A stretch of DNA of 64,000 bases from assembly GCA_905234565.1 (NCBI GenBank), contig CAJOHW010000001.1, positions 19,732-83,731 of the forward strand. Direction: 5' to 3'. A model generated the notes under the pieces. The model saw only the letters and a list, made by a program, of their open reading frames with translations. It ran no database searches and had not been told where the DNA came from. Within the stretch, counting starts at the first letter, position 1. Every line of letters begins with the position of its first letter. Both the position numbers and the translations under genes were made by a program. Source of the DNA: an uncultured Oscillibacter sp. (GTDB lineage: Bacteria; Bacillota; Clostridia; Oscillospirales; Oscillospiraceae). Below, one piece after another: positions 5,454 to 11,535 of the stretch.

Positions 5454-5482
5454 GCATAACCGGGGACGAGCCGTCATAGAGT
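5454..5482 (+). promoter_or_regulatory. Possible SigE-type promoter for spoIIIA operon
   Basis: gcATAAc - 14 nt - CATAgagT, resembling the B. subtilis SigE consensus; upstream of spoIIIAA. Confidence 0.4.
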
Positions 5483-5504: not shown

Positions 5505-6419
5505 ATGTACATGGAGCGAAACAATGAGGCGGAGCGGTACGACCGGGCGGCGGCAGTGCTGCCCAGCCGTCTGCGGAAAGCGGCCCTGGCGCTGCCGCCG
5601 GAGAAAAAGCGTCTGGCGGAGGAACTGCGTCTGCGGACCGGACGGCCTGTGACCGTACTGCTCCCCGGCGGAGAAGAGGAACTGGACGTGACAGCGGAGC
5701 CGGAGGATCTGGAAACCCTGTGCGATTTGGCGGCGGAGTTCTCCCGGTACGCCGCCGCGGAGACCCTGCGGCAGGGCTTCATTCCCGTCCGGGGAGGCTT
5801 CCGGGTGGGGCTGTGCGGTACGGCGGTGATGAAGGACGGAATCAACACCAATCTGGTCCACCTCTCCTCCGCCGCCATCCGCATTGGCCGGGAACAACCA
5901 GACGCCGGAGCGTCAGCGGCTCCCCAGCTGTTCCGGCAGGGGGACTTCGCCAGTACCCTGCTGCTCTCCCCTCCGGGAGGGGGGAAAACCACCTTGCTGC
6001 GGGATTTGGTGCGGCGGCTGTCCATGGGAGTGGAACCCTACGGCCCAAGACGGGTGGCCCTTATCGACGAGCGGGGAGAGGTGGCGGTGTGCGTCCAGGG
6101 GATTCCCCAGATGGACGTGGGACCCCATACGGACGTGCTGGACGCCTGTCCCAAGGCCATTGGAATCCCTATGGTACTGCGGGCTATGAACCCCCAGATC
6201 ATCGCCGTGGACGAGATCACCCTCCGGGAGGATTTGCAGGCCGTATCCATGGCCGCCGGGTGCGGCGCGGCGGTGCTGGCCACGGTCCACGCCGCCGATA
6301 TTGAGGATCTGCGGCGGAAGCCCCTGTACCGGGATCTGCTGGAAAGCGGGGTCTTTCGTCTGGCGGTCACCATCTCCCAAGAGGACGGACAGCGGCGGTA
6401 TGACGTGGAGGAACTGTGA
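5505..6419 (+). CDS. spoIIIAA: Stage III sporulation protein AA (ATPase)
   Basis: Walker A LLSPPGGGKTTLLRDLVRRLS; first gene of a spoIIIA-like operon. Confidence 0.93.
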   Translation: MYMERNNEAERYDRAAAVLPSRLRKAALALPPEKKRLAEELRLRTGRPVTVLLPGGEEELDVTAEPEDLETLCDLAAEFSRYAAAETLRQGFIPVRGGFRVGLCGTAVMKDGINTNLVHLSSAAIRIGREQPDAGASAAPQLFRQGDFASTLLLSPPGGGKTTLLRDLVRRLSMGVEPYGPRRVALIDERGEVAVCVQGIPQMDVGPHTDVLDACPKAIGIPMVLRAMNPQIIAVDEITLREDLQAVSMAAGCGAAVLATVHAADIEDLRRKPLYRDLLESGVFRLAVTISQEDGQRRYDVEEL

Positions 6420-6898
6420 AGGCGGCGGGGGCGGCGTGGATTCTGCTGGGGGCGGTCTGGTGGGGCTGGATCTCCCTGTCGGAACGCCGCCGGAGGCGCG
6501 CCCTGTTGGAGGAACTGGGGCGGTCCCTTCTGCGGATGTCGGAGGAGATCCGGACGGACCGGACCCCTATGCCTTCCCTCCTTCGGCAGAGGGCGGCGGA
6601 GTGCGGCGGGGACGCCGCCGCCTTTTTCCGCCGGGCCGGAACGGGAGAGGACCGGTCCCGATCCTGGGAACAGGCGGCGGAGGCCCTGCCCCTGTCCCCT
6701 CAGGAGCGGCAGGTCCTTGGGAAGCTGGCCCAGGATTTGCGGGGAGACGAGATCCGGATCCGGCGGGCTTTTGCCCACGCCGCCGGGTACTTACAACAAA
6801 ACGCCCGGGAGATGGACCGCACTTACCGGGAGGATCTGCGCCGGACCGCCGCCTTAGCGCTCTGCGGCGGGATCATGCTGGCGGTTTTCCTTTACTGA
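6416..6898 (+). CDS. spoIIIAB: Stage III sporulation protein AB
   Basis: GTG start overlapping the AA stop; size, TM pattern and synteny. Confidence 0.88.
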   Translation: MKAAGAAWILLGAVWWGWISLSERRRRRALLEELGRSLLRMSEEIRTDRTPMPSLLRQRAAECGGDAAAFFRRAGTGEDRSRSWEQAAEALPLSPQERQVLGKLAQDLRGDEIRIRRAFAHAAGYLQQNAREMDRTYREDLRRTAALALCGGIMLAVFLY

Positions 6899-6922
6899 CC
6901 TGACCTATTCCGGAGGGACAAC

Positions 6923-7117
6923 ATGGAAGTGGATCTGATCTTCAAAATCGCGGCCATCGGCATTCTGGTGGCGGTGCTGAACCAACTGCTGGTCCGGTCC
7001 GGACGGGAGGAACAGGCCATGATGACCACCCTGGCGGGACTGGTGGTGGTGCTGATGATTCTGGTCCAGCGGATCAGCGATCTCTTTGACCTGATTAAGA
7101 GCCTGTTCCAGTTCTGA
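6923..7117 (+). CDS. spoIIIAC: Stage III sporulation protein AC
   Basis: 64 aa, LIFKIAAIGILVAVLNQLLVRSGREEQAMMTTLAGLVVVL. Confidence 0.95.
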   Translation: MEVDLIFKIAAIGILVAVLNQLLVRSGREEQAMMTTLAGLVVVLMILVQRISDLFDLIKSLFQF

Positions 7118-7119
7118 GG

Positions 7120-7509
7120 ATGGAGCTTCTCTGGCAGATCGCCGTACTGTGCGCGGCGGGGGCAGTGCTGTCCCTGGTGATCCGGCAGGGCAGTCCCGTT
7201 ATGGCCCTGGTGCTGTCCCTGGGACTGGCGGTGCTGGTCCTCAGCGCCCTGGCGCCGTCCCTGGGGGAACTGCTGGCCTTCTTCCGGGAACTGGAAGATC
7301 GCAGCGGCCTGCCCCCCGCCCTCTTAGGCCCCCTCTATAAGACCGTGGGCATCGCGGCGGCGGTGCGGATCGGCGGGGATCTGTGCCGGGACGCCGGGGA
7401 GTCCGCCTTGGCCTCCACCGTGGAGGCCGCCGGAACCGTGTGCGCTTTACTGACGGCCCTGCCCCTTCTGCGGGAGGTGCTGGAAATGCTGTTGGAGTTG
7501 ATGGAATGA
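7120..7509 (+). CDS. spoIIIAD: Stage III sporulation protein AD
   Basis: Synteny and TM pattern. Confidence 0.92.
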   Translation: MELLWQIAVLCAAGAVLSLVIRQGSPVMALVLSLGLAVLVLSALAPSLGELLAFFRELEDRSGLPPALLGPLYKTVGIAAAVRIGGDLCRDAGESALASTVEAAGTVCALLTALPLLREVLEMLLELME

Positions 7510-8579
7510 GGGGAATTCTGTGCAGCCTGTTCGCCCTATGTCTGCTCTTTTGCGCCGCCTCCGCCCTGGGGGTTCCGCAGGACGTGATCCAGGCCGCGCC
7601 GGAGGGGGCGTCGGAGTACACAGCGGAGTTTGAGGATCAGTCCGGTCCCCAGGCCCTGGACGGCGGGATCCGGCGGATCTGGGAGGATCTGCGGCGGCAG
7701 TGCGGGGCGATTTTCCGGCAGAGGCTCCGGGGGGCGGCGTCGGTGCTGACGGCGGTGATCCTGTGCAGCGGGGCAAAGGGACTGCTGGGGGATCGGGAGG
7801 GGGGTCTGCTTCTGCCCATGGCGGGAGCATTGGCGGTGACAGCCCTGGCCGCCGGAAGCCTGGACTACCTCATCGGCCTGGGCTGGGACACCATCCGGGA
7901 CTTAGACCGCTTCTCCAAAGCCCTCCTGCCCGCCCTGGCCGCCGCCACCGCCGCCTCCGGCGCGGTCACCACCGCCACCTTCCAGCAGGTGGCCACCGTG
8001 TTCCTGTCCGAACTCCTGGTGGGCTGGATGAGCGGGGTATTGATGCCCGTGACCTATCTCTACATCGGGGTCCTGACCGCCTCCTGTGCCCTGGCGGAGG
8101 ACCGTCTGGCTCTCCTGGCGGCAGGGCTTAAAAAAATCGTCACCAGCCTCCTGACCGGGTCCCTGCTGCTCTTTACGGTGTATCTGTCCGTGTCCCGGGT
8201 GATCACCGGGTCCGTGGACGCGGCGGCGGTGCGGACCGCCAAGGCCGCCGTGTCCAACGTGGTGCCGGTGGTGGGAGGGATTCTGGCGGAGGCGGCAGAG
8301 GCTGTGCTGGCCGGGGCGGGAACGCTGCGGGCGTCCCTGGGGGTCTTTGGAATGGTGGCAATCTTAGGGGCCTGTGTCTATCCCTTCTTACAGCTGGGGA
8401 TCCAGTATCTCCTCTATAAGGCGGCGGCCCTGCTGGCCTCGTGTGTGGGGATGCCGGAGCTGTGCCGCCTGCTGGACGGCCTGGGCGGGGCCTTCGGTCT
8501 GGTGCTGGGGATGACAGGCAGCTGTGCTTTACTGCTGCTGGTGTCGGTGCTGAGCTTCGTCTCGGCGGTGACGCCGTGA
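7506..8579 (+). CDS. spoIIIAE: Stage III sporulation protein AE
   Basis: MRGILCSLFAL start overlaps AD stop; polytopic, long SpoIIIAE-like TM region. Confidence 0.92.
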   Translation: MRGILCSLFALCLLFCAASALGVPQDVIQAAPEGASEYTAEFEDQSGPQALDGGIRRIWEDLRRQCGAIFRQRLRGAASVLTAVILCSGAKGLLGDREGGLLLPMAGALAVTALAAGSLDYLIGLGWDTIRDLDRFSKALLPALAAATAASGAVTTATFQQVATVFLSELLVGWMSGVLMPVTYLYIGVLTASCALAEDRLALLAAGLKKIVTSLLTGSLLLFTVYLSVSRVITGSVDAAAVRTAKAAVSNVVPVVGGILAEAAEAVLAGAGTLRASLGVFGMVAILGACVYPFLQLGIQYLLYKAAALLASCVGMPELCRLLDGLGGAFGLVLGMTGSCALLLLVSVLSFVSAVTP

Positions 8580-9040
8580 TGGGGGCGGTGCGGTCCTGGC
8601 TCACGGGGGTGATTTTGACCGCCCTGCTGTCCTCCCTGATCCGTTCCCTTCTGCCGGAGGGTGCCGTGCGGCGGATTGGCGCGTTCACCGGGGGACTGGT
8701 GCTCATGTCCGCCATGCTCCTGCCGTTCCTGCAGGGACGGCTGGATCTGCCGGATCTGCGGTGGGAGACCTATGAGGAGGCGGTGGCCCAGCGGAAAGCG
8801 GAACTGGACGGGGAAGCCGCCCGGGAACTGGAGACGCAAGTGGCCCGCCGGACGGAGGCGCTGATCAAAGTCCGGGGGGCGGAACTGGGCCTCTCCTTGG
8901 ACTGCGCCGTGACGGTGCGGGGGGATCCGCCCCTGCCCTGGTCGGCGGCGCTGTCGGCGGAGCGGGATCCGGACCTGGAACGCTGGATAGAGGCAGAACT
9001 GGGGATCCCCGCCCTGCGGATTGCGTGGGGAGAAGAATAG
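8579..9040 (+). CDS. spoIIIAF: Stage III sporulation protein AF
   Basis: MGAVRSWLTGVILTALLSSLIRSLLPEGAVRR...: two N-terminal TM helices plus soluble tail; overlaps AE stop. Confidence 0.8.
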   Translation: MGAVRSWLTGVILTALLSSLIRSLLPEGAVRRIGAFTGGLVLMSAMLLPFLQGRLDLPDLRWETYEEAVAQRKAELDGEAARELETQVARRTEALIKVRGAELGLSLDCAVTVRGDPPLPWSAALSAERDPDLERWIEAELGIPALRIAWGEE

Positions 9041-9071
9041 GCCGTCCCGGAGGGGACGGCCTGGGTTTTTC
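9039..9071 (+). terminator. Terminator directly after spoIIIAF
   Basis: aggccgtcccggaggggacggcct then gggttttt; stem overlaps the spoIIIAF stop codon. Confidence 0.8.
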
Positions 9072-9165: not shown

Positions 9166-9390
9166 TTACTGATCTGCCTTGTCTTTTATCACGAATGACG
9201 CAGTCAGCAATGTCACCGCGGCAATGAGGTATCCCAGATAGAAAATCCTCTTAACATGGGCATCGACTTTGAAACTGCCAATATAAAACACTCGTCCCAA
9301 CTGAGGCGCGTTCAGCGCCACATAAACAAAGATGACAGCAACGATGAGCATGAGAATGCCTATGGCTCTGAGAAGTCTCTTTGTATTCAT
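9166..9390 (-). CDS. Small two-TM membrane protein, unknown function
   Basis: MNTKRLLRAIGILMLIVAVIFVYVALNAPQLGRVFYIGSFKVD...; ggaggtgcagaATG. Confidence 0.7.
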   Translation of the reverse strand: MNTKRLLRAIGILMLIVAVIFVYVALNAPQLGRVFYIGSFKVDAHVKRIFYLGYLIAAVTLLTASFVIKDKADQ

Positions 9391-9537
9391 TCTGCACCTC
9401 CGTAAATCCAGATTTGCCTGCCCGGTATCGTCAATGATACCGTCTGATTTCAACATGGCGCGCCCGCAAGTTTCGTCAAATCGCTGAAACGCCTGACCAG
9501 CCTCCGATAAAGGAAAAAGGACTTTTTCCTTTCCCCT

Positions 9538-9598: not shown

Positions 9599-10288
9599 AT
9601 GCGGGTGCTGGTGGTTGAGGACGAGGCGCGGCTGGCCGCCACGGTCCGGGATCTGCTGGAACTGGACGGATATACCGTGGACGTGTGCCGGGACGGGGAG
9701 AGCGGTTTGGACAACGCCCTGTCCGGGATCTATGACGTGTGCCTGATGGACGTGATGCTGCCCAAACTGGACGGCTTCGAGGCCGTGCGCCGCCTCCGGA
9801 ATGAGGGCTGCGGAGTACCTGTGCTGATGCTCACCGCCCGGTCCGATCTCTCCGACCGGGTCCGGGGCCTGGACTGCGGGGCGGATTACTACCTGACCAA
9901 GCCCTTTGAACCTAAAGAACTGCTGGCCTGTGTCCGGGCCCTGGTCCGCCGTCAGCCGGAACTGCGGGACACCGGGATCCTGGAATACGGGGACCTGCGG
10001 CTGGACAAAAACGGCTTCCAGCTCTCCTGCGGGGAGCGGTCCATCCACCTGAGCCGGAAGGAGTACAGCCTGCTGGAACTGCTCATGCTGAACCGGGAGC
10101 GGGTCCTGGAAAAGGAGACCATTTTCTTGAAAATCTGGGGCTACGACTCCGAGGCGGAGGGCAACAACGTGGAGGCCTATATCTCCTTCCTCCGCCGGAA
10201 ACTGGCCCACCTCCACTCCCATGTCCACATCCGCACGGTGCGCATGGCGGGCTACTGCCTGGAAAAGGCCCCGGAAACCGCCGGATAG
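9599..10288 (+). CDS. OmpR-family response regulator
   Basis: MRVLVVEDEARLAA..., receiver MDVMLPKLDG, wHTH NNVEAYISFLRRKL. Confidence 0.95.
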   Translation: MRVLVVEDEARLAATVRDLLELDGYTVDVCRDGESGLDNALSGIYDVCLMDVMLPKLDGFEAVRRLRNEGCGVPVLMLTARSDLSDRVRGLDCGADYYLTKPFEPKELLACVRALVRRQPELRDTGILEYGDLRLDKNGFQLSCGERSIHLSRKEYSLLELLMLNRERVLEKETIFLKIWGYDSEAEGNNVEAYISFLRRKLAHLHSHVHIRTVRMAGYCLEKAPETAG

Positions 10289-10299
10289 GAGGCGGTAAC

Positions 10300-11535
10300 G
10301 TGCTGAAAAAGCTGCGGCTCAAATTCGTGGCCGTGTGTATGGCCCTGATTACGGCGGTGCTGGCGGTGATGATCGGCACGGCGGTGCGGTCCGCCCGGGA
10401 GCGGGTGGAGCGTATCAGCGCCGATGTGCTCAGCCGCGTCATCGCCGAACAGCCGGGAAAACGGAGTATCGGCATCGGCGGCGGGGAAGTGGCCCTGCCC
10501 TACTTCACCGTAGAGGTGTGGCAGAACACCGCCTACGTCACCGGGGGCACCTACGGGGAGTTGGAGGACACGGAGGCCCTGACCGCCATTCTCTCCGCCT
10601 GTATGGAAAAGCCGGAGGCGGAGGGAATGCTGCCGGAGTACAATCTGCGCTATCTCCGCCGGGACAAGGGGCTGTACAGCCGGGCAGCCTTTGTGGATAT
10701 GTCCATGGAGATAGCCGCCCTGCGGGAGATGCTGGCTTCCTGGCTCCTGACCGCCCTGGCCTCCCTGCTGCCCCTGTTCGGGGTGTCGGTACTGCTGTCC
10801 CAGTGGGCAGTGGGGCCTGTGGAGCGGGCCTGGAAACAGCAGCGCCAGTTCCTCTCCGACGCCTCCCATGAGCTGAAAACCCCCCTGACCGTCATTCTCT
10901 CCAACGCCGGAATGCTGGAAGAAACCGACCTCCCGGACCGCCCCCGCCAGTGGGCGGAGAACATCCTGTCCGAATCCCGGCGGATGAAAACCCTGGTGGA
11001 GGAGATGCTGGCCCTGGCCCGGGCGGACAACGCCGCAAAACCCGAACCCTTCGGGGAGATCTCCCTGTCCGGCGTGGCGGAGGACTGCGCCCTGGCCTTT
11101 GAACCTGTGGCCTTTGAGGCGGGAAAGCCTCTGGAATCCGCCCTGGCCCCAGGCGTCACCGTGCTGGGCGACGGGGAAAAGCTCCGGCGGCTCATCTCCG
11201 TCCTGCTGGACAACGCCATTAAATACGGCGCGGAGGGGGGAACCCTCCGCCTGTCCCTGGAAGCGGGGGACCGTCAGGCGAAACTCACTGTCACCAACCC
11301 CGGGGAACCCATCCCGCCGGAGGTCCTGCCCCATCTCTTTGAGCGTTTCTACCGGGGGGACGCCTCCCGGGGAGAGCGGCCCGGGTTCGGCCTGGGGCTG
11401 AGCATTGCCGGGGCCATTGCCCGGGAACACCGGGGCACTTTGAAAGCCCAGAGCGGCCCGGAGGGCACGTCCTTCCTCTTTACCATGCCGCTGAAAAACA
11501 CACGAAAAAGCGCCGGATCCCCGGCGCACCAATGA
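10300..11535 (+). CDS. Sensor histidine kinase
   Basis: H-box SDASHELKTPLTVILSNAGML, N-box DNAIKYG, G-box GFGLGLSIA. Confidence 0.95.
   Translation: MLKKLRLKFVAVCMALITAVLAVMIGTAVRSARERVERISADVLSRVIAEQPGKRSIGIGGGEVALPYFTVEVWQNTAYVTGGTYGELEDTEALTAILSACMEKPEAEGMLPEYNLRYLRRDKGLYSRAAFVDMSMEIAALREMLASWLLTALASLLPLFGVSVLLSQWAVGPVERAWKQQRQFLSDASHELKTPLTVILSNAGMLEETDLPDRPRQWAENILSESRRMKTLVEEMLALARADNAAKPEPFGEISLSGVAEDCALAFEPVAFEAGKPLESALAPGVTVLGDGEKLRRLISVLLDNAIKYGAEGGTLRLSLEAGDRQAKLTVTNPGEPIPPEVLPHLFERFYRGDASRGERPGFGLGLSIAGAIAREHRGTLKAQSGPEGTSFLFTMPLKNTRKSAGSPAHQ

Follow-up and report, generated by a model that had tools for sequence, protein, structure and literature searches.

The genes spoIIIAA to spoIIIAH are described as one conserved operon, to the extent that operon context is used to identify its members (PMC7924749). 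In the stretch of DNA analysed here, 64,000 nucleotides of a draft genome of an uncultured Oscillibacter sp. (referred to below as the window), the series stops at spoIIIAF. A first-pass annotation of the window left two options, namely that spoIIIAG and spoIIIAH had been relocated or that the channel which SpoIIIA proteins form with SpoIIQ has a different composition in this organism. The question raised by the locus is thus whether the channel itself has changed or only the arrangement of the genes that encode it.

The two spoIIIA loci of the window genome

Six overlapping or closely spaced open reading frames occupy positions 5505-9040 of the plus strand and were identified by profile matches as spoIIIAA, AB, AC, AD, AE and AF, in the canonical order. 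The first, spoIIIAA (5505-6419), encodes a secretion-type ATPase (PF19568, 226 bits; TIGR02858, 261 bits) and is preceded at 5454-5480 (C1:25185-25211), on the same strand, by a putative sigma-E-like promoter, GCATA-N16-CATAGA, recognized by a pattern match to the motif alone. It is followed by spoIIIAB (6416-6898; PF09548, 72 bits), spoIIIAC (6923-7117; TIGR02848, 92 bits, above the cut-off), spoIIIAD (7120-7509; TIGR02849, 57 bits; PF06686, 70 bits), spoIIIAE (7506-8579; PF09546, 138 bits), the ATG of which overlaps the AD stop and corrects its start to 7506, and spoIIIAF (8579-9040). Start codons overlap the preceding stops at AA/AB (6416), AD/AE (7506) and AE/AF (8579), and these overlaps, together with the close spacing, bear out the tight coupling of AA-AF noted in the first-pass annotation.

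The weakest profile match among the six is that of AF (TIGR02896, 33 bits; PF09581, 23.5 bits; both below cut-off). The suggestion that this gene might be a diverged AG was rejected, as TIGR02896 was its sole NCBIfam match at E<=1 and TIGR02830 was not among the matches. Neither the open reading frames nor a profile search revealed spoIIIAG or AH directly after AF, confirming their reported absence from this locus. A terminator stem had also been described across the AF stop, and a terminator-like hairpin is indeed found there: its 11-pair stem (9038-9063, plus strand) overlaps the stop codon (9038-9040), is followed by GGTTTTT, and has a folding energy of -28.8 kcal/mol compared with -13.5 +/- 2.5 in shuffled sequences (z -6.0), suggesting that an intrinsic terminator closes the AA-AF unit. 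The genes beyond it are, as had been stated, an unrelated small membrane gene and a two-component system, with the correction that the membrane gene, a 75-aa open reading frame without a family match, lies on the minus strand (9166-9393) and is convergent to AF; the response regulator and histidine kinase (plus strand, about 9599-11535) are followed by a gene for pyruvate kinase.

The window genome (G000; a draft of 1.99 Mb in 74 contigs, 95.8% complete) was searched as a whole with models of SpoIIIAG and SpoIIIAH, and adjoining matches to the two were found on contig C4. Both genes lie on the minus strand and overlap by ten bases: spoIIIAG at C4:11375-11869 (TIGR02830, 43-49 bits, below the cut-off of 147.7) and spoIIIAH at C4:10794-11384 (PF12685, 128 bits, over the cut-off). 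A comparison by phmmer matched the product of the former to the cryo-EM structure of the SpoIIIAG ring (5wc3, E 1.8e-6), and that of the latter matched solved SpoIIIAH chains (3uz0, E 0.005). The identity of AG is thus based on its profile and structure matches and on the same position, before AH and nusB, of AG in relatives. Downstream of AH lie asp23, nusB, xseA, ispA, dxs and tlyA, and a divergent bioY is found 5' of AG. As the identical series, asp23-nusB-xseA-ispA-dxs-tlyA, follows AH in relatives with a joined operon, the AG-AH pair has remained at the ancestral, nusB-side address, and it is AA-AF which now lies elsewhere. The downstream neighbourhood of spoIIIA in B. subtilis, nusB-xseA-ispA-dxs, is similar.

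The absence of AG and AH from the window locus could be read as a channel which truly lacks these two proteins or employs substitutes. Given an intact, adjacent AG and AH in the same genome, with sequences consistent with those of their clade and with a promoter motif of their own, this reading is refuted and its probability is negligible. Relocation, the other option of the first-pass annotation, is borne out by the pair on C4, a finding named there as one that would refute a changed channel, whereas a different channel composition is not supported, since the eight SpoIIIA proteins and sigma-E are encoded, AG and AH being standard genes. The genome also has four M23 genes, one of which, on C32, has SpoIIQ (NF053738) as its best NCBIfam match (68 bits, below the cut-off of 250) and is thus a candidate SpoIIQ-like LytM protein.

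Distribution of divided operons among relatives

The positions of AA and AH were compared in 60 relatives, most of them metagenome-assembled genomes, and in 80 named loci from Oscillibacter, Dysosmobacter and neighbours. Nearly all same-genus genomes carry AA and AH on a single contig about 4 kb apart, as do most of the named loci, and the operon is joined in about 43 relatives within the genus. A joined operon is therefore the rule, and the synteny check proposed in the first-pass annotation exposes a clade in which it is divided: nine genomes, including that of the window, form a single clade in which AG-AH is separate or was not found. Breaks at contig ends were removed before true splits were counted, and G033, G040 and G051 were rejected on this ground as false splits; G004 was left out of the tally as its AC is interrupted.

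In a tree of six genes (1233 columns, IQ-TREE, 1000 ultrafast bootstraps) every split genome of the genus except L127 falls into one clade with support of 100/99. Parsimony on a quick tree gave two changes from joined to split; a tree of AA only had placed the split genomes in more than one position with weak support, and these were brought together by the six-gene tree. The arrangement varies within the clade. The window genome has AA-AF and AG-AH, and a rumen subclade (G001, G060, G061 and G062) has AA-AB, AC-AF and AG-AH on three contigs. In G005 two different contigs carry AA-AB and AC-AF, and AH was not found in its genome. AG-AH is flanked in G022 by aminopeptidase and cysteine desulfurase genes; in L149 the genes after AF encode a GntR-type regulator and then a cysteine desulfurase; and in the genome of L145 a different contig carries AG-AH, which there stands behind a GntR-type gene. 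L127 has an AF-AG gap of about 2 kb which contains a gene of the metallo-beta-lactamase fold.

Outside the genus, G055, from another family of the order, shows a break between AF and AG with AG-AH kept near nusB (L225, L226); this split arose independently, and a sigma-E-like motif was not found within 260 nt 5' of its AG. A distant relative, G070, carries AA-AB and AC-AH on two contigs (L170, L230), the former adjoining a gene for a sporulation-type sigma factor. Aside from insertions within AC, all breaks seen lie at two seams, AB/AC and AF/AG.

It might be argued that the split is an artefact of assembly or binning in a draft of 74 contigs, particularly as the three genomes rejected above show that contig ends do create false splits. 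We regard this as very improbable. AF has a terminator of its own and then unrelated genes in the interior of contig C1, AG lies with its own promoter motif and the divergent bioY in the interior of C4, and independently assembled relatives share the identical break and the identical shift of the promoter.

Several further features of the relatives were observed. In G001, AG-AH comes directly after spoIIP (L073:6212-7990), another likely sigma-E gene. In G061 and G062 the pair lies beside rnpA or yidC (L206:7139-7501, L208:6017-7171), genes usually found near the replication origin, which suggests that AG-AH has moved more than once. A TIR-domain gene stands directly 3' of AG-AH in two rumen genomes (L073:8659-9786 and L206:9135-10082, both on the minus strand); the copy in L073 carries BspA-type repeats and the flanking genes differ between the two, as if the TIR-domain gene had moved together with the pair.

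The insertions within AC are of a different kind. The spoIIIAC gene of Pseudoflavonifractor phocaeensis An858 runs to about codon 40 and is then interrupted (L172:2740-7132, L231:5391-7330, on one contig of 167,731 bp), and the last 45 bases of AC, with AD-AH, lie ~127 kb further along the same contig. A serine recombinase gene is found near each end of the insert, the flanks of which share CTGG, and joining the flanks there would restore an open AC frame. Elements of the skin type are excised during sporulation (PMC5595907), and the insert, judged from its flanks and recombinase genes, resembles these and is a candidate skin-like gene-intervening element. spoIIIAC is broken at the same codon in L155 (at 11521, G004) and L112 (at 11535), the element end in L112 being nearly identical to the left end in P. 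phocaeensis and that in L155 related, so the site has been hit in more than one genus. A search of the available literature for spoIIIAC with prophage retrieved nothing relevant, and relatives of the element's recombinase were not found among viral contigs.

Promoter motifs and the separation of the loci

Promoters are treated throughout as sequence motifs, using the pattern [GT]CATA-N16-CATAnA, which resembles sigma-E promoters. The motif was found 5' of AA in 66 of 77 loci (some genomes being counted twice), compared with 1.7% of random 250-nt stretches. In the window genome KCATA-N16-CATANA gave 12 matches, against one for the reversed control, and among the 12 are matches 5' of spoIIIAA, spoIIIAG, spoIIP, ylbJ, a SipL-domain gene and a gene for a D-Ala-D-Ala carboxypeptidase.

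In joined operons the motif of AG lies within AF, about 190-220 nt 5' of AG, and outside the genus' own family most loci with a joined operon (L157-L177) have this internal motif as well. In seven split genomes (G000, G001, G022, G060, G061, G062 and L127) the motif is instead found about 52-78 nt 5' of AG; in the window genome it occupies C4:11910-11936, 55 nt from AG and outside AF. Each of the two units of that genome, AA-AF and AG-AH, thus has its own putative sigma-E-like promoter, as judged by motif. The internal motif is absent from the AF of the window, from all six AF genes which lie on contigs separate from AG, and from L127 and L149, although at genus level this link between a split and an AF without the motif amounts to only some two separate events, one in the clade and one in L127. 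In the three-module clade a further motif, TCATA-N16-CATAGG, has been gained 5' of AC, as seen by inspection of upstream sequences (L205, L207, L209, L210 and L211).

The internal motif appears to have left its mark on the AF reading frame. Among genus AF genes with AG in the same locus, ATA, a rare isoleucine codon, is used at the -35 element in 43 of 44, compared with a background of 6%, the lone exception being L127; at the -10 element GCA is used in 40 of 44 (background 9%), and a further ATA at the motif is also used in 40 of 44 (6%). Similarly, at the ribosome-binding site of AG, AGG is found in 41 of 43 (8% background) and GTT in 32 of 43 (6%). The peptide AYISDKA, present at the motif site of joined loci such as the AF of L121, drifts in split genomes, and it is only in loci whose AF contains the AG promoter motif that the peptide and its rare codons ATA/GCA/TAT/ATA are conserved. 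This part of SpoIIIAF would therefore appear to be a peptide sequence imposed by the overlapping promoter. The divided genomes may be regarded as a natural experiment, in which the loss of the AG motif from AF wherever the two genes are apart supports an internal promoter across the group.

A similar overlap bears on how the operon was divided. In joined operons the ribosome-binding site of AG lies inside the AF tail, GAGAGGCAGG...CATG, which the AF tail in the window does not contain. In the window genome a similar segment, GGAGAGAGGCAGG..TGCCATG, is still present 5' of AG, while AF retains a tail of its own. As the end of AF and the ribosome-binding site of AG shared sequence in the ancestor, and a form of this segment survives at each of the two daughter loci, the likeliest route would be that part of the operon was duplicated and that each copy then lost what the other retained. 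This route is based on short sequence relics, and we would give it roughly even chances. The occurrence of AG-AH or AF near the same GntR and cysteine desulfurase genes in G022 and L145/L149 would fit an early second copy. The neighbours 5' of AA in intact relatives were too variable to separate inversion from transposition of AA-AF.

A more serious alternative is that the split is a sign of a decaying sporulation programme in bacteria which no longer make spores. Genomes in the clade are small, at about 2 Mb, its branches are long and its AF is divergent, and Oscillibacter has been listed as asporogenous (Galperin 2012, PMC3533761). However, the reading frames are open, sigma-E matches its profile over the curated cut-off in the window genome as in every split genus genome tested, and sigma-E-like motifs stand 5' of AG and, in the three-module clade, of AC, which decay would not create. 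We therefore consider decay unlikely, whilst according it some weight.

The sequences show that all eight genes are present, that AG-AH retains its ancestral neighbours, that the split is common to a clade and that the motif has shifted from AF to a position before AG. We are confident that the octet has been divided at AF/AG into two loci, each with a sigma-E-like promoter motif, and that these would still supply the usual channel. Both AA-AF and AG-AH would be co-expressed in the mother cell under sigma-E, and SpoIIIA proteins from the two loci would meet in the septal membrane to form the usual SpoIIIA-SpoIIQ channel. It is thus most likely that the channel is unchanged and that the gene arrangement alone is new.

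A broader reading can be offered more tentatively, its four parts taken together having slightly less than an even chance of being correct. The octet would consist of three separable modules, AA-AB (the motor), AC-AF (the membrane core) and AG-AH (the rings), each viable as a sigma-E unit; the seams at AB/AC and AF/AG would have opened repeatedly in evolution; the modules would have moved apart in this clade, possibly with a change in how much of the rings is made, or when, compared with the motor; and the promoter and ribosome-binding site of AG would dictate AYISDKA in an intact AF, which drifts after AG leaves.

Comparison with known spoIIIA operons

A literature search, conducted with most subscription journals outside its coverage, yielded no earlier description of a split spoIIIA. 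The operon is broken here while every gene is retained, in contrast to the single conserved operon of the published descriptions (PMC7924749), and a survey that identifies these genes by their operon context would be mistaken in recording AG and AH as absent from genomes of this kind.

An internal sigma-E promoter for AG-AH is established in both B. subtilis and C. difficile (PMC4605598, PMC6934232, PMC3789822). In the former, a second and essential internal promoter serves spoIIIAG-AH, according to Guillot and Moran (2007) as cited in PMC2703783 and PMC6934232; in the latter, separate sigma-E promoters precede AA and AG in a contiguous AA-AH octet (PMC3789822; PMC4605598). The cut at AF/AG would thus coincide with a known transcription boundary, and it is perhaps not surprising that it was tolerated at low cost, as AG-AH already had a promoter of its own, in the manner of these two species. 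The split also predicts that AG-AH could be transferred to a distant locus without harm.

The window genome shares with B. subtilis the same eight genes and, as far as the motif indicates, sigma-E control, but has two loci and an AG promoter motif outside AF where B. subtilis has one contiguous operon; the octet which is unsplit in C. difficile is likewise split here. A further close parallel is the arrangement of the three-module rumen relatives, which have a lone AG-AH with the motif at about 54 nt and have lost the AF motif, and which differ in the extra cut at AB/AC, with a sigma-E-like TCATA-N16-CATAGG before AC.
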